Origin: Anaerolineae bacterium
GTDB taxonomy: Bacteria; Chloroflexota; Anaerolineae; Aggregatilineales; Aggregatilineaceae
Assembly (NCBI GenBank): GCA_018432315.1
Contig: JAHDLB010000001.1
Coordinates: 186,001 to 250,000 of the forward strand
DNA: 64,000 nt
Direction of reading: 5' to 3'
The translations under genes were made by a program, and so were the position numbers. Of the stretch, positions 20,977 through 29,887 are shown piece after piece (within the stretch, counting starts at the first letter, position 1; the number at the start of each line of letters is the position of its first letter). The notes beneath the pieces were generated by a model. It was not told the DNA's origin, made no database searches, and worked only from the letters and a program-made list of their open reading frames with translations.

Positions 20977-22698
20977 TTACTGCGTGACGAGCATGAGATC
21001 GACCGGGATGTACGCCTCGACACCCATGCCCGCCAGGAAGGCGGCGGTCGTCTCGACGCCCAACTGGCCCATCAGCGCGGGCTGCTGGGCGACGGTCGCG
21101 GCCAGCGTGCCGGCTTCCACCGCGGCCACCGCGTCATCGATCGCGTCGAAACCGACGAAGACGATGTCTTCGGCGCGGCCCGCCGCCGTGGCGGCCTCGA
21201 TCGCACCCAGGATCATCTCGTCGTTATGGGCGAAGACGCCGTCGATCTGGTCCTGCGCCTGCAGGATGTTCTCGAAGACGGTCAGGCCCTCGGCCCGGTT
21301 GAAGTTGGCCGTCTGGCGCGCCACGATCTCGACGCCGGGGCATTCCTCGCTCATGTAGGCGTTGAAGCCCTCGCCGCGGTCGCGCGCCGCCGACGTCCCG
21401 GCGATGCCTTCCAGCTCGACGACCATGCCTTCGCCGCCCAGCGCACCGCACAGGAACTCAGCCGCCATGCGGCCACCGGCCACGTTGTCGGACGCGATGT
21501 GGCTCACCACGTCGCCGCCCGCCGCGCCGCGATCGATCGTGAAGACGGGGATCCCGGCGTCATTCGCGGCCAGGATCGACGGCACGATCGCGTCGGCATC
21601 CGTTGGGTTGACCATGATCGCATCGACGCCCTGCGCGATCAGGTCTTCCATGTTGGCCGCCTCGGTCGCGGGATCGTCCTGCGAGTCGAGCACGATCAGC
21701 TCGGCGGTGCCCAGGCCATCGGCAGCCGCCTGCGCGCCGTCGCGCAGCGTGACGAAGAACGGGTTGTTCAACGTCGAGAGCGACAGGCCGAGCGTCAGCT
21801 TCTGCACGATGCGCAGGTCAACCGGGATCGACACAGCAACCTCTTCACCGTTCAGGTACGCCACGGACCGCTCGACGCCCAACCGGCCCATCAGCGCGGG
21901 CTGCTGGGCGACGGTCGCCGCCAGGCGGCCCTCGTTCACCGCGGTCACGGCATCGTTCACCGCGTCGAAACCGACGAAGACGATGTCCTCGGCGCGGCCC
22001 GCCGCCGTGGCGGCTTCGATGGCGCCCAGAACCATCTCGTCATTGTGCGCGAAGACGCCGTCGATCTGGTCCTGCGCCTGCAGGATGTTCTCGAAGACGG
22101 TCAGGCCCTCGGCGCGGTTGAAGTTCGCCGTCTGGCGGGCCACGACCTCGATATCGGGGCAGTTCTCGCTGGTGTAGGCGTTGAAGCCCTCGCCGCGGTC
22201 GCGCGCCGCCGACGATCCCGGAATGCCCTCCAGCTCGACGACCAGGCCTTCGCCGCCGATCGCGTTGCACAGGAACATGCCGGCCATGCGGCCACCGGCC
22301 ACGTTATCCGACGCGATGTGGCTCACGACCTGGCCGCCCGCCGCGCCGCGATCGATCGTGAAGACGGGGATCCCGGCGTCGTTCGCGGCCAGGATCGACG
22401 GCACGATCGCGTCGGTGTCGGTCGGGTTGACCAGGATCGCATCGACGCCCTGCGCGATCAGGTCTTCCATGTTAGCCGCTTCGGTGGCGGGATCGTCCTG
22501 CGAATCCAGCACGATCAGCTCGACACCAAGCTCGTCGGCGGCGGCTTGCGCGCCGTCGCGCAGCGTGACGAAGAACGGGTTGTTCAGCGTCGAGAGCGAC
22601 AGGCCGAGCGTGTAGCCATCGTCCTGCGCGTGGAGCGCGCCCAGCGGGAAAGCGGCCAGCAGTACGATCAGGACAAACAACATGCTTTTACGGAACAT
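20977..22698 (-). CDS. Periplasmic-type sugar-binding protein with two tandem binding modules
   Basis: A 573-residue secreted protein, about twice the usual RbsB length of 300. After a Sec signal (cleavage near LHA-QDD, residue 24) there are two near-identical Peripla_BP_4 modules, residues 30-301 and 302-573. Both begin TLGLSLSTLNNPFFVTLRDG and share NPTDxDAIVPSILAANDAG, the hinge IDRGAAGG, and GVFAHNDEM. The second module has one extra residue near GLGTAELIVLD. The ATG at 22698 gives the signal peptide and has AGGAGG upstream. It lies between two different RbsC permease genes. Confidence 0.93.
   Translation of the reverse strand: MFRKSMLFVLIVLLAAFPLGALHAQDDGYTLGLSLSTLNNPFFVTLRDGAQAAADELGVELIVLDSQDDPATEAANMEDLIAQGVDAILVNPTDTDAIVPSILAANDAGIPVFTIDRGAAGGQVVSHIASDNVAGGRMAGMFLCNAIGGEGLVVELEGIPGSSAARDRGEGFNAYTSENCPDIEVVARQTANFNRAEGLTVFENILQAQDQIDGVFAHNDEMVLGAIEAATAAGRAEDIVFVGFDAVNDAVTAVNEGRLAATVAQQPALMGRLGVERSVAYLNGEEVAVSIPVDLRIVQKLTLGLSLSTLNNPFFVTLRDGAQAAADGLGTAELIVLDSQDDPATEAANMEDLIAQGVDAIMVNPTDADAIVPSILAANDAGIPVFTIDRGAAGGDVVSHIASDNVAGGRMAAEFLCGALGGEGMVVELEGIAGTSAARDRGEGFNAYMSEECPGVEIVARQTANFNRAEGLTVFENILQAQDQIDGVFAHNDEMILGAIEAATAAGRAEDIVFVGFDAIDDAVAAVEAGTLAATVAQQPALMGQLGVETTAAFLAGMGVEAYIPVDLMLVTQ
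20980..21795 (-). repeat. Tandem repeat copy 2 (C-terminal binding module)
   Basis: 816 bases, 272 codons, in frame and very similar at DNA level to the copy at 21796-22611. Long identical stretches occur around the segment encoding AEGLTVFENILQAQDQIDGV, suggesting recent duplication or ongoing gene conversion. Confidence 0.9.
21796..22611 (-). repeat. Tandem repeat copy 1 (N-terminal binding module)
   Basis: 816 bases, exactly the same period as copy 2. The copies join directly at V-Q-K-L with no linker domain. Differences are mostly third-position changes plus scattered substitutions. Confidence 0.9.
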
Positions 22699-22808
22699 TC
22701 TTGTCTTTCCTCCTGTAAGAACACAATCTCCGGCCAGGGAAGTGTAGAGATGAAACGCGGCTTTGGACTCGGTCACCTCCTTGATACATTATACAGGCTA
22801 ATACAGGC

Positions 22809-25056: not shown

Positions 25057-25608
25057 ATGCAAGCCGTGGAAGTCGTGACGTTAGGCGGAGGGTGTTTCTG
25101 GTGTTTGGAGACGGTCTATGACCGGCTGAAGGGCGTGGAGGACGTCGTGTCCGGCTATGCCGGGGGGCACGTCCCGTCGCCGTCGTACCAGCAGGTGTGC
25201 ACCGGCACGACCGGGCACGCGGAGGTCGCGCAGATTACGTTCGACCCGGCGGTGATCACGTTCAGCGATATTCTGGACGTGTTCTTCACCATCCACGATC
25301 CGACCACGCTCAACCGCCAGGGCGCGGACGTGGGCACGCAGTACCGCTCGGCGATCTTCTACCACACCGGCGAGCAGCGCGTCATCGCCGAGGGGGCCAT
25401 CGCCGAACTCGACGCGGCGGGCGTGTGGGACGCGCCGATCGTCACCGAGGTGACGCCGCTGGACACGTTTTACCCGGCGGAGGACTATCACCAGGACTAC
25501 TACGTGCGCAACCCGGAACAGGGCTACTGCCGGATGGTGATCGCGCCCAAGGTCGCCAAGCTGCGCAAGCATTTTCTCGAACGGCTCAAAGACCCGGCCC
25601 AGGCTTGA
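25057..25608 (+). CDS. msrA: Peptide methionine sulfoxide reductase A
   Basis: A 183-residue cytoplasmic enzyme reducing methionine-S-sulfoxide in proteins. The catalytic Cys is C13 in GGGCFWCLE. YAGGHVPSPSYQQVCTGTTG, the HAEV segment and GTQYRSAIFYH are conserved substrate-site residues. GAGGAAGG lies immediately before the ATG at 25057. The GTG nine bases later (V-E-V-V-T-L) has better spacing and may be the real start. It is co-oriented with the flavin-barrel gene 39 bases downstream. Confidence 0.95.
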   Translation: MQAVEVVTLGGGCFWCLETVYDRLKGVEDVVSGYAGGHVPSPSYQQVCTGTTGHAEVAQITFDPAVITFSDILDVFFTIHDPTTLNRQGADVGTQYRSAIFYHTGEQRVIAEGAIAELDAAGVWDAPIVTEVTPLDTFYPAEDYHQDYYVRNPEQGYCRMVIAPKVAKLRKHFLERLKDPAQA

Positions 25609-25647
25609 GGATGTGAGAAGGGCTTGAGACTGCAAGGAGGTCGTACC

Positions 25648-26118
25648 ATGTCCACCGAACTGATTCGATCCCGCCCCGCGACGCAGAAGGACTACGGGAT
25701 CCCCGACGACGAGGCCGGCATGCTGACCTGGGACTGGGTGACGGACCGGCTGGCGGCGGCCCGGAATTACTGGGTGAGCTCGACCCGCCCGGACGGGCGC
25801 CCGCACGCGATGCCGACGTGGGCCGTGTGGGTGGATGGGACGCTGTATTTCGGCGGGGGACGCGAGACGCGCCGGGCGCGCAACATCGCGGCCAACCCGG
25901 CGGTTGTCGTCCACCTGGAGAGCGGCGACGAGGTCGTGATCCTCGAAGGCACGGTCGAGGAGGTCGCCGATCCGGCGCTGCAAGAGCGGATCGACGACGC
26001 GTACGAGGTCAAGTACGGGATCCGACACGGACCGACGGTGTGGGGCGTGCGCGTCGAGAAGGTCTTCGCCTGGAGCGAATTCCCCACCACGATGACGCGC
26101 TGGCACGTCGCGTCGTGA
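25648..26118 (+). CDS. FMN/F420-binding split-barrel (pyridoxamine 5'-phosphate oxidase-like) protein
   Basis: A 156-residue protein of the PNPOx-like split-barrel superfamily. WVSSTRPDGRPHAMPTWAVW and LYFGGGRETRRARNIAANP are the cofactor-binding strands, followed by VVVHLESGDEVVILEGTVE. Members reduce or oxidise small molecules with FMN or F420, but the exact reaction cannot be read here. AAGGAGG stands nine bases before the ATG at 25648. It may be co-transcribed with msrA. Confidence 0.82.
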   Translation: MSTELIRSRPATQKDYGIPDDEAGMLTWDWVTDRLAAARNYWVSSTRPDGRPHAMPTWAVWVDGTLYFGGGRETRRARNIAANPAVVVHLESGDEVVILEGTVEEVADPALQERIDDAYEVKYGIRHGPTVWGVRVEKVFAWSEFPTTMTRWHVAS

Positions 26119-26147: not shown

Positions 26148-27017
26148 CTAGCTCGCCGCGCGCCGCTCGCGTTCGGACGTGAGCGCGGCCTCGGGCGGGC
26201 CGAATGGGTCGAGCGGCTCCGCCTGGTGGCCGTTACCGTTGGTCCGCCGGGGCAGGATGGCGCGCGCCGTGCGCCCGGCGTAGATCACGTCGATCGGCAT
26301 CTCGTAGGCGGCGGACAGGACGGGCTCGGTCAGGACGTGCTCCGGCGGCCCATCGGCCACGATGCGCCCGGCTTTCATCACGACGACCTGGCTGGCGTAC
26401 AACAGGGCGCTGTTCGGGTTGTGCGACGAGATCACGAAGGCGACGTTTTGCTCGGCCAGCGCGCACACCGTCTCCAGCACGTGATGCTGGTTGGCAGGGT
26501 CCAGGTGGGCGGTCGGCTCGTCGAGCAGCAGCACGTCCGTCTGTTGGGCCAGCCCGCGCGCGATCAGCGTGAGCTGGCGCTCGCCGCCGCTCAGCTCGGT
26601 GTACGACCGGTCGCGCAGCGCCGCCAGCCCGACCTGCTCGATGGCCGCGTCCACGATCTCGTAATCGCGGCGGCCCGGCGTGCCCAGGAAGCGCAGGTGC
26701 GGCGTGCGGCCCATCAGCACGACCTCGCGCACCGTATAGGCGAAGACCGGCGTGTGAATCTGCGGGACGAGGCCCAGCCGCTGGGCGCGCTTGTTGGCCG
26801 GGAAGCGGCTGATGTCGACGCCGTTGATCGCCACCGTGCCGCCGCCCGGCGGGCGAACGCCGCTCAGGATCTCGAGCAGGGTGGTCTTGCCACAGCCGTT
26901 ATGCCCCAGCAGGTACACCGTCGATCTGGGCGGCACCGCGAGGCTGACGTCGTGCAGCACAGGCTCGCCGGGCGTGTAGGCGTAGGAGATCGTCTCTGCG
27001 CGTAAAAGCGGGTTCAT
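26148..27017 (-). CDS. ABC transporter ATPase, FecE/BtuD/MolC type
   Basis: A 289-residue ATPase of a type II importer. Walker A is GHNGCGKTT, the signature LSGGERQ, Walker B VLLLDEPTAHLD and the H-loop SSHNPN. The C-terminal 40 residues form a low-complexity Pro/Glu-rich tail. The ATG at 27017 overlaps the permease stop as ATGA; another ATG six bases upstream is possible. It is the last gene of a three-gene operon with a BtuC-type permease and a binding protein under a riboswitch-like leader. The system is probably for molybdate/tungstate by that leader; iron chelates or cobalamin remain alternatives. Confidence 0.88.
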   Translation of the reverse strand: MNPLLRAETISYAYTPGEPVLHDVSLAVPPRSTVYLLGHNGCGKTTLLEILSGVRPPGGGTVAINGVDISRFPANKRAQRLGLVPQIHTPVFAYTVREVVLMGRTPHLRFLGTPGRRDYEIVDAAIEQVGLAALRDRSYTELSGGERQLTLIARGLAQQTDVLLLDEPTAHLDPANQHHVLETVCALAEQNVAFVISSHNPNSALLYASQVVVMKAGRIVADGPPEHVLTEPVLSAAYEMPIDVIYAGRTARAILPRRTNGNGHQAEPLDPFGPPEAALTSERERRAAS

Positions 27018-28075
27018 CGCCATCCTGTCTTGTTCACTCTCAGAATAACCAGCAGCAAGGGCACCCCGACCACGCCGGTGAACACGCCGAGCGGCACTTC
27101 CGCCGGGAGCAGGGTGCGCGACATGGTATCGATCAACAGCAGGAACACCGCGCCGAGCGCCATCGTCGACGGGACCAGCCGCTGGTGATCCGGCCCGACC
27201 AATGTCCGCGCGGCGTGGGGGATCACCAGCCCGACCCAGCCAATCACGCCCCCGACCGATACGGCCATCGCCGTCATCAGCGTGCTGCACACGATGATCA
27301 TCAGCTTGAGGCGGGTCGGGTTCAGGCCCAGGGCCAGCGCCTCGTTGTCGCCCATCGACAGCACGTTGAGCCGCCAGCGCACGCCCCACAGGAAGATCAT
27401 CCCCCCGAACGAGATCGCCGCCAGCATGGGGATGTCGCCGCGGGTGACGTCCGTCAGGCCGCCCATCAGCCAGTAGGTGATGGCGGGCAGCGTGTCCAGC
27501 GGGTCGGCCACGTACTTGAGCAGCGACGTCAGCGAGGCGAAGAACGACCCGACCAGGATGCCGACCAGCGTCAGCACCAGCAGCGGCGCGGTGTGGTACA
27601 GGCGGCTGGTGAAGTAGGACAGCATCACCGCCACCAGCCCGAAGACGAAGGCCAGCATCTGTACCTCGAACGACGAGCGGAGCAGCAGCAGTGCCAGCGC
27701 CGCGCCGAAGCCCGCGCCCGACGTCACGCCCAGGATGTTGGAATCGACCAGGGGATTGCGGAAAATCCCCTGGAAGGCAGTTCCCGTGACGGCCAGGTTA
27801 GCGCCGATCAACATCGCGGCGACGATGCGCGGCAGGCGAATGCGCGTCACGATGTTGTAGGCCAGGTCCGGCTGGGTACCGGTGTTCTCGCCGACGGTCG
27901 CGTAATCGACCAGGGCGCGCACGACGTCCTCGGTGGGGATCGCGTAGCGGCCCAGGCCGATGGTGTAGATCGCCAGCGGGACGGGCAGCAGCAAAATCAG
28001 CCAGAAGAGGGCCGACTGGCGGCGCTCGGCGGTCGCCCAGATGCCGGGCAGCCGGCGGTTCAGCGTACGGATCAC
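27014..28075 (-). CDS. ABC transporter permease, FecCD/BtuC/MolB type
   Basis: A 353-residue permease with about ten helices. Family landmarks are RLPRIVAAMLIGANLAVTGT, GIFRNPLVDSNILGVTSGAG, GALALGLNP-like EALALGLNPTR and GWVGLVIPHAAR. The GTG at 28075 overlaps the binding-protein stop (GTGA) and has AGGAA eight bases upstream; a TTG six bases earlier is too close to that site. It works with the ATPase at 26148. Confidence 0.9.
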   Translation of the reverse strand: MIRTLNRRLPGIWATAERRQSALFWLILLLPVPLAIYTIGLGRYAIPTEDVVRALVDYATVGENTGTQPDLAYNIVTRIRLPRIVAAMLIGANLAVTGTAFQGIFRNPLVDSNILGVTSGAGFGAALALLLLRSSFEVQMLAFVFGLVAVMLSYFTSRLYHTAPLLVLTLVGILVGSFFASLTSLLKYVADPLDTLPAITYWLMGGLTDVTRGDIPMLAAISFGGMIFLWGVRWRLNVLSMGDNEALALGLNPTRLKLMIIVCSTLMTAMAVSVGGVIGWVGLVIPHAARTLVGPDHQRLVPSTMALGAVFLLLIDTMSRTLLPAEVPLGVFTGVVGVPLLLVILRVNKTGWR

Positions 28076-29475
28076 TGGCAAAGTTCCTGAGCTTCGTCCT
28101 CGGACATCGCGTAATCGTAGAACAGGTTATAGAACGTGATCGCCTCAGACGCACAGTCGAGCGCGACCTGGTCCGGGTAGAGCGTTTCGGCCATCCAGAT
28201 AATGCCGAGAATCGAGTCCGGGACCGGCGTGTCCCACGGGGCGGCCAGCTTGGGCAGCCCGTACACCCGGCCCGCCTCCACCGCCGGAATGATGGCCCAC
28301 TCTGCCGATTCGGTGAAGGCTTCGCGGTTGGCGCCGCCGTAGGGCGGGTAGAAGATCGCGTCCGGATTCCAGATGGCGACCTGTTCCAGGTTGACGTCGT
28401 TCCAGAAACCGCTCAGCTCGGCGCTCACCGACTCGCCGCCCGCCGCCTCGACCATCGTCGTCTGGTACATCGCGCCGCTGGCCACGCGCAGCGGGTCGGT
28501 GCCGGTGAACAGCACGCGGGTGCGCGGCTCGATGGGCTGCGTCTGGGCCAGAATCTCGGCCAGCGTGTCGTCGTAATAGGCGTTGAACAGCGCCGCGCGG
28601 TGGGCTGCGTCCGGCCCCAGGGCCGCGCCGAGCAGCGTCATGGCGCCCTTCAGCAGCTCCGGCGATTCGCCCTCGAAGCGGATCACGGGCAGGCCCAGCT
28701 CGCCGGCGGCATTCAGCCAGTCGGTGCGCGCGCTCGTCAGCAGCAGATCGGGCTGGAGCGCGGCCAGTTCTTCGATGTTGGCTTCCTGCTGGTTGAGCGT
28801 CGAGACGGCATTCATCACCGTGTCGAAGTTGGGATCGAGGCGGCGCATGGCTTCCGCGCCAACCGGGTCGCGCGCCCCCAGGTAGCCGGCGGCGACCAGC
28901 CGGTCGCCCGCGCCGACGCTATAGACGTAGTACGTGGCGACGCTGTACGGCGAGGCGATGCGCCGCACCGGCTGCGGCACGCTGACCGTCGCGCCGGTCT
29001 GGTCCACCACCTCGACCATGGCGGGCAGCAGGCCCAGGTCGATCGCGATCTGCTGGCCGTCCGGCCCGGTCATGAAGGCTGCCAGCGCCCCGGCGGCCTC
29101 GTCGAGCGGATCCATCGCGCCGCCGCACGAATTGGAGGCGACGACCCGCGCGCCGAGATCGGGCAGCAGCATGTAAGCGCGGCTGACGAACCCGCACTCG
29201 AACGCGATCGCGGGCTCGGTTTTGACGTCATCCAGGATGAGGACGTTCGCTTCGGCGGCGCGGTCCAGCACGGCGTCGCTGGTGGGCGCGTATTCGACCG
29301 TCACGCTCACGCCGCCGGCTTCGGCGAACGCCGCCGCCCACGCCTCGACCGGCGCCTGGGCGGATTCCAGCGCCAGCACCCGCAGGCTCTCGCCGGATTG
29401 GGCATGGATCGCCGGGGCGGTCCCGCCCACCAACAGGATCACCAGGACAGCCCACACTCCGATACGTTTCAACAT
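28072..29475 (-). CDS. Chimeric substrate-binding protein: ModA-like segment fused to a BtuF/MolA-type domain
   Basis: A 467-residue secreted protein with a Sec signal cleaved near IHA-QSG (residue 25). Residues about 30-150 resemble a shortened ModA-type oxyanion-binding protein: LRVLALESAQAPVEAWAAAF at the start and AAFMTGPDGQQIAIDLGLLP at the end. Residues about 153-467 are a helical-backbone (BtuF/FecB/MolA) domain: VSVPQPVRRIASPYSVATYY, EELAALQPDLLL and NPDAIFYPP. The usual BtuF length is about 300. The ATG at 29475 gives the signal peptide. It is the first gene after the riboswitch-like leader. Confidence 0.82.
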   Translation of the reverse strand: MLKRIGVWAVLVILLVGGTAPAIHAQSGESLRVLALESAQAPVEAWAAAFAEAGGVSVTVEYAPTSDAVLDRAAEANVLILDDVKTEPAIAFECGFVSRAYMLLPDLGARVVASNSCGGAMDPLDEAAGALAAFMTGPDGQQIAIDLGLLPAMVEVVDQTGATVSVPQPVRRIASPYSVATYYVYSVGAGDRLVAAGYLGARDPVGAEAMRRLDPNFDTVMNAVSTLNQQEANIEELAALQPDLLLTSARTDWLNAAGELGLPVIRFEGESPELLKGAMTLLGAALGPDAAHRAALFNAYYDDTLAEILAQTQPIEPRTRVLFTGTDPLRVASGAMYQTTMVEAAGGESVSAELSGFWNDVNLEQVAIWNPDAIFYPPYGGANREAFTESAEWAIIPAVEAGRVYGLPKLAAPWDTPVPDSILGIIWMAETLYPDQVALDCASEAITFYNLFYDYAMSEDEAQELCQ

Positions 29476-29563: not shown

Positions 29564-29597
29564 TAAAACAAATGTCGCCAGCGGAGAACTGGCGACA
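29564..29597 (-). terminator. Intrinsic terminator in the leader of the oxyanion-type importer
   Basis: Minus-strand TGTCGCCAG (29597-29589), loop TTCTCCG and CTGGCGACA (29581-29573), followed by TTTGTTTT. It lies about 90 bases before the first start codon, after the riboswitch-like region. The loop sequence TTCTCC (29588-29583) is complementary to GGAGAA in the leader (29633-29628), a ready antiterminator pairing. Confidence 0.8.
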
Positions 29598-29619
29598 CCA
29601 TACAGGCATAGTTGTGTCG

Positions 29620-29790
29620 GGCACAGGTTCTCCTTTCCAAGTCCACCCCGGCGGGCCGGGGTTTCGGGAGGCCGCGGCGTTTCCACGCGCGACCCTGTTC
29701 CTGCCTCGGCAGGAACTCCTCACCGCTGGGTGAGGCGGCGGCACGCCATGACCCTGTTGGGGTTTTAGGCCATACCGCTCGGAGAAAGAT
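29620..29790 (-). ncRNA. Structured leader resembling a molybdenum-cofactor (Moco) riboswitch
   Basis: A leader of about 170 bases rich in helices: CCTCACC/GGTGAGG, GTTCCTGC/GCAGGAAC, GCGT-GGAA-ACGC with a GNRA-type tetraloop, and CCCCGG/CCGGGG. It starts with CTCCGAGCGGTATGGCC and later has GGCCTCCCGAAACC, which resemble, from memory, conserved blocks of the Moco RNA motif. It precedes an intrinsic terminator and a MolBCA-like importer, which fits the known gene association. The assignment was not tested by covariance search; a different riboswitch class or an unrecognised one is possible. Confidence 0.55.
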
Positions 29791-29858
29791 TGATTATGCT
29801 ATTGTACCCGCTTTCGGGCCGGTCGCTAAGGGCTGCCGGTCCGGCGGCGTGACTGTGA

Positions 29859-29887
29859 ATTTTAGCACAACTCGCGCCCGACTTCAA
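29859..29887 (-). promoter_or_regulatory. Promoter of the riboswitch-importer operon
   Basis: Minus-strand TTGAAG (29887-29882), a 17-base spacer and TAAAAT (29864-29859). The transcript would start about 60 bases before the structured leader. A second candidate, the TACAAT box at 29806-29801, lies closer to the leader. Confidence 0.6.

Follow-up and report, generated by a model that had tools for sequence, protein, structure and literature searches.

The Moco RNA motif, Rfam family RF01055, is the aptamer of the molybdenum/tungsten riboswitch. In its founding study, direct binding of the molybdenum cofactor (Moco), an unstable compound, was not demonstrated (PMC2408646). The same 2008 survey noted that RNAs of the type associated with the tungsten cofactor (Tuco) are devoid of the P3 stem, whereas P3-bearing RNAs go with Moco, a correlation rather than a proven rule. 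Moco riboswitches have since been reported, in a 2026 paper, from Dehalogenimonas, which belongs to the same phylum, Chloroflexota, as the genome studied here. Among transporters, the points of reference are MolBCA of Haemophilus influenzae (HI1470-1472) and the ModA/WtpA-type receptors of molybdate or tungstate. We analysed a 64-kb stretch of an Anaerolineae genome (hereafter, the window), in which a leader precedes an importer operon on the minus strand. The leader belongs to the Moco class and contains P1, a terminator, and an antiterminator that has co-varied with P1; it is followed by three genes, including a receptor whose domains are related to molybdate-binding proteins. It is very probably a P3-bearing Moco riboswitch serving as a transcriptional OFF switch of a molybdate/tungstate importer operon: it would bind its ligand, terminate transcription in the cell, and control the import of one or both oxyanions.

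Class and structure of the leader

The leader (29796-29614) matches RF01055 over the full length of the model (positions 1-135) with 61.1 bits (cmscan, E 3.1e-12), the curated gathering score being 36 bits. RF01055 is the sole Rfam family matched in the window, where neither a cobalamin riboswitch model nor any other family reached its gathering score; a cobalamin or other riboswitch at the leader is thereby ruled out. Membership in the molybdenum-cofactor riboswitch family is confirmed. The first-pass annotation had named this class on the basis of a structured leader with characteristic blocks, and the score, far above chance, bears it out; its leader of 170 bases is indeed structured, but the aptamer core closed by P1 measures 159 nt (29786-29628) and exceeds the Rfam consensus by one hairpin. 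GC-rich sequences fold readily, so a chance match of a structured leader devoid of riboswitch function has to be weighed; yet an E-value of 3e-12 on a curated model, the exact core blocks, their conservation in relatives, and the covariation of the switch make it extremely improbable.

The minimum-energy fold and the Rfam alignment recover the P1-P5 layout of the family with its conserved junction and the GAAA tetraloop in P4; read from 5' to 3', the helices of the fold are P1, P2, P3 as a pair of hairpins, P4, and an extended P5 (Table 1). Upstream, the consensus scan found one promoter-like site, against 0.0 +/- 0.1 in shuffled sequences. The gene context is also that of RF01055, with an importer operon at this locus and an fmdE-like gene at a second copy of the RNA. 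The identification is correct and ordinary; the variant details are the doubled P3, the hybrid receptor, and a regulon that includes the fmdE-like gene.

Table 1. Features of the leader and of the importer operon, with window coordinates.
Feature	Position	Strand	Evidence
Promoter-like site TTGAAG-17-TAAAAT, TG before the -10	29859-29887	-	consensus match only
Moco riboswitch aptamer, full-length RF01055 match	29614-29796	-	cmscan
P1 5' strand TTCTCC	29781-29786	-	MFE fold and Rfam alignment
Block CTCCGAGC	29777-29784	-	sequence
P2 hairpin region; in the consensus, its bulge is the site of the tetraloop receptor	29738-29778	-	Rfam alignment, fold
P3a hairpin CCTCACC-CAGC-GGTGAGG	29718-29735	-	fold, shuffle test, pair counts
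P3b hairpin GTTCCTGC-CGAG-GCAGGAAC	29697-29716	-	fold, shuffle test, pair counts
P4 with GAAA tetraloop and CCTCCCG block	29665-29696	-	Rfam alignment and fold
Block GGCCTCCCGAAACC	29660-29673	-	sequence
P5 region, lengthened by an additional GC-rich hairpin	29637-29668	-	Rfam alignment, fold
P1 3' strand GGAGAAC, also 5' half of predicted antiterminator	29627-29633	-	pairing analysis
GTTCTCC in terminator 5' arm/loop, 3' half of predicted antiterminator	29583-29589	-	pairing analysis
Intrinsic terminator hairpin, 12 pairs, then TGTTTT	29571-29599	-	consensus scan
Substrate-binding protein: ModA-like N-terminal half-domain (~29-152) and MolA-type TroA-like part (~153-467)	28072-29475	-	PF01497, PDB profiles including MolA 3psa, AlphaFold, Foldseek
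FecCD/BtuC-type permease (MolB position)	27014-28081	-	PF01032, E 1.2e-80
ABC ATPase (MolC position)	26148-27023	-	PF00005, E 2.2e-29

The doubled P3 is stable and recurrent. The P3 region of this leader has a z-score of -5.4 relative to dinucleotide shuffles, none of which (0/300) reached its energy, and the double-P3 relatives lie mostly between -1.7 and -7. We compared P3a and P3b hairpin by hairpin, the MAFFT alignment of ten long aptamers having misaligned P3b. At the five outer pairs, 60 of 60 are standard in P3a and 77 of 80 in P3b, and most positions show several types of pair; in a control with one strand slid, the share of standard pairs is roughly 35-67%. These counts are partly circular because the hairpins were picked from folds, a circularity from which the shuffle test is free. 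When 61 Anaerolineae aptamers were folded with P1 constrained, 19 had no P3 helix, 18 had one, 19 had two, and 5 were unclassable; long matches having been picked on purpose, these proportions are not representative.

With two hairpins at the P3 position, the RNA would fall in the P3-bearing class, that of Moco and not Tuco, insofar as the correlation of the 2008 survey holds. We thus consider it unlikely that this RNA senses the tungsten cofactor and controls a tungstate importer, even if AFOR_N, a family with tungsten enzymes among its members, has four matches in the genome, and tungstate is, like molybdate, a ligand of MolA: Tuco-type RNAs have no P3 in that survey, and MoCoBD_1 likewise gives four matches in this genome. 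Across the class, the counts of Mo or W gene families give no clean separation by P3 type. The highest-scoring match of the class (85.9 bits), itself devoid of P3, precedes a PBP_like_2 receptor (L046:591-1430). We take PBP_like_2 to be the family that includes the tungstate-type TupA, in which case this locus would fit the association of P3-less RNAs with tungsten. The P3 rule becomes testable with a P3-bearing RNA in a genome where Mo-hydroxylase-type genes coexist with AOR-type ones.

Terminator, antiterminator, and switching

The scan identified one terminator downstream of the aptamer, with the tail TGTTTTATGG, against 0.4 +/- 0.6 in shuffles, in agreement with the intrinsic terminator proposed at first reading. 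The 3' strand of P1 is the reverse complement of the seven bases spanning the arm and loop of this terminator, and the GGAGAA (29633-29628) and TTCTCC (29588-29583) of the proposed switching element lie exactly where the annotation had put them. We studied this pairing in the 39 leaders from Anaerolineae that have a terminator no more than 150 nt away, by computing the energy of each P1 3' strand with each terminator. Cognate pairs have a mean of -10.8 kcal/mol and non-cognate pairs -9.0 kcal/mol, and a mean as low as the cognate one did not occur in 20,000 permutations (p<5e-5). The preference persists once near-identical P1 strands are removed (n=23, p = 1.5e-4). The antiterminator has therefore co-varied with P1 in the relatives, which provides comparative support for a P1/terminator switch across the whole of the Anaerolineae.

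These elements suggest the following mechanism. When Moco is scarce, GGAGAAC in the 3' strand of P1 would pair with GTTCTCC in the 5' arm and loop of the terminator; this pairing would block the terminator, and the molybdate/tungstate importer operon would be transcribed. Moco bound to the aptamer would hold P1 closed, the terminator would form, and import would decrease. One point counts against this mechanism: at equilibrium in the absence of ligand, the terminator state is predicted at -134.2 kcal/mol and the forced antiterminator at -120.4 kcal/mol. Since the former is lower by ~14 kcal/mol, the ON state must be kinetic (co-transcriptional) or the switch leaky.

Control of translation, instead of transcription, was also considered. 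It fits two relatives (L017 and L023), in which GGAG of P1 is the apparent ribosome-binding site and the start codon comes directly after P1. Here, the start codon is ~150 nt beyond P1 and has its own ribosome-binding site, GAGGAAGG, with the terminator in between. Because of this terminator and separate site 3' of P1, we rejected translational control at this locus, where it is very unlikely.

The importer operon and its receptor

The three genes of the controlled operon (29475-26148), for a FecCD permease, an ABC ATPase, and a TroA-like receptor, specify an ABC importer of type II. The assignment to the BtuCD/MolBC class made from the sequence was sound, as PF01032, PF00005, and PF01497 occur together in one operon of MolBCA type. 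We set the start of the ATPase at MAMNPLL by comparison with relatives. The main domain of the receptor is PF01497 in all 17 relatives. Its best profile matches are 4hn9 and 4ovk, whose substrate is unproven, followed by MolA of H. influenzae (3psa, E 1.1e-28). The AlphaFold model of the full receptor has a mean pLDDT of 90.5.

Modelled alone, the N-terminal 124 residues of the receptor have a pLDDT of 90.7, and each of the first 24 structural matches found by Foldseek is a molybdate or tungstate receptor of the ModA/WtpA type, with a best E-value of 9.8e-4 and best matches that span only ~60 residues. The Pfam matches in this region are fragments (18.9 and 19.5 bits) below the cut-off, and the receptor is not the complete two-lobed class II protein expected of the ModA family. 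From its predicted structure, the half-domain appears to correspond to one of the lobes of a ModA-like protein. Since the second lobe is absent, it cannot by itself form the usual two-lobed oxyanion cleft. The modelled resemblance provides independent support, not proof, for an oxyanion substrate.

Annotation would call this importer an iron-siderophore or B12 system, and the best partial scores to NCBIfam equivalogs are indeed with BtuC, BtuF, haem, or F420-type families. We nevertheless regard as improbable an importer of cobalamin, haem, or iron siderophores with a Moco RNA nearby by accident: no NCBIfam equivalog reached its cut-off for the receptor or the permease, the window has no cobalamin riboswitch, the linkage of the importer with the Moco RNA recurs in seven genomes, and the half-domain of the receptor is ModA-like. 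The operon most likely encodes a molybdate/tungstate importer, a substrate suggested by the Moco RNA, and any preference for one of the two oxyanions is inferred.

The genome encodes no ModA, WtpA, or ModB above the cut-off, with ModB-like permeases found only below it, and has no match to TIGR01256; MoaA is over the cut-off. Elsewhere, the genome encodes another receptor of this two-domain layout (L100:4165-5529, contig 13; 59% identity), with no riboswitch, permease, or ATPase beside it. This second copy weakens the idea that the operon is the sole importer. A second RF01055 match (46.5 bits, G000 contig 52), also equipped with a terminator-like hairpin, precedes a gene that encodes an FmdE domain. 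This match lies between a multi-ferredoxin-domain gene and the FmdE-like gene, which has a zinc-finger tail (L002:278-1489, L014:13438-14040). Two other loci of the window were recorded: msrA and an F420/PPOX-type gene on the plus strand (25057-26118), which converge with the importer operon at its end, and a minus-strand ORF of 599 aa (20977-22776) with a tandem pair of sugar-type solute-binding domains that are nearly identical.

Distribution in the Anaerolineae and comparison with known systems

We searched 61 genomes of Anaerolineae assemblies (e.g., CHL4), the present one included. The Moco RNA was found in 12 and a receptor of this type in 23; in the seven genomes with both, the RNA is always directly upstream of the receptor (7/7), which puts it before orthologous importers in six genomes other than this one. 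Across the class, the motif is present in 142 of 346 genomes, and the sampled first genes behind it are mostly related to Mo or W (FmdE, MolA-type, ModA-like, MoeA, MoaA, and molybdopterin enzymes). Three of these RNAs are directly followed by ECF-type importers (L020:5721-8416, L022:4276-7541, L025:4280-6401) with a fused double ATPase and a PF09819 S component, accompanied by a CbiQ-like T component in L022 and by a small Oxidored_molyb-like lipoprotein in L020. PF09819 and Oxidored_molyb recur behind other Moco RNAs of the class. Judging from domain content, the PF09819 system is possibly an uncharacterised importer of Mo, W, or a cofactor precursor, on which we found no paper.

Many orthologous operons have no riboswitch, which counts against the preferred explanation. 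In some of them, a putative PadR regulator gene sits at the riboswitch position: Pfam confirmed a PadR-family gene directly upstream of the receptor in five cases (L033:3152-3679, L034:3143-3673, L035:3169-3699, L039:112-660, and L042:3384-3917), and there are further cases by sequence pattern only. Others have neither riboswitch nor PadR gene. We tentatively suggest, at slightly less than an even chance, that a Moco variant found repeatedly in the Anaerolineae, with its P3 doubled, controls a chimeric molybdenum receptor made of a ModA-type lobe and a MolA-type part, and that the Moco riboswitch and PadR are alternative ways, in different genomes, of controlling one and the same operon. Such a receptor architecture would be one not described in the literature searched.

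With the ModA/WtpA receptors, the protein shares the match of its half-domain to one lobe, and it differs by the short alignment, the Pfam scores below the cut-off, and the absence of the second lobe. The resemblance to MolBCA is broader. Both are type II importers with a FecCD-type permease, and the receptor matches the fold of MolA (3psa) with a TM-score of 0.81 by target length; it is, however, only ~20% identical to MolA, carries the extra ModA-like half-domain, and has a predicted substrate. The leader itself has the full-length covariance match of the Moco riboswitches, their core blocks, P1, P2, P4, and P5, the GAAA tetraloop in P4, Mo-related genes downstream, and an expression platform of the terminator type, also reported for the class. 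With it, the class is placed in a lineage that is known chiefly through metagenome assemblies and belongs to a phylum absent from the 2008 list. The leader departs from the consensus in structure: two hairpins, P3a and P3b, stand in place of the single stem at P3, and P5 carries an extra hairpin.
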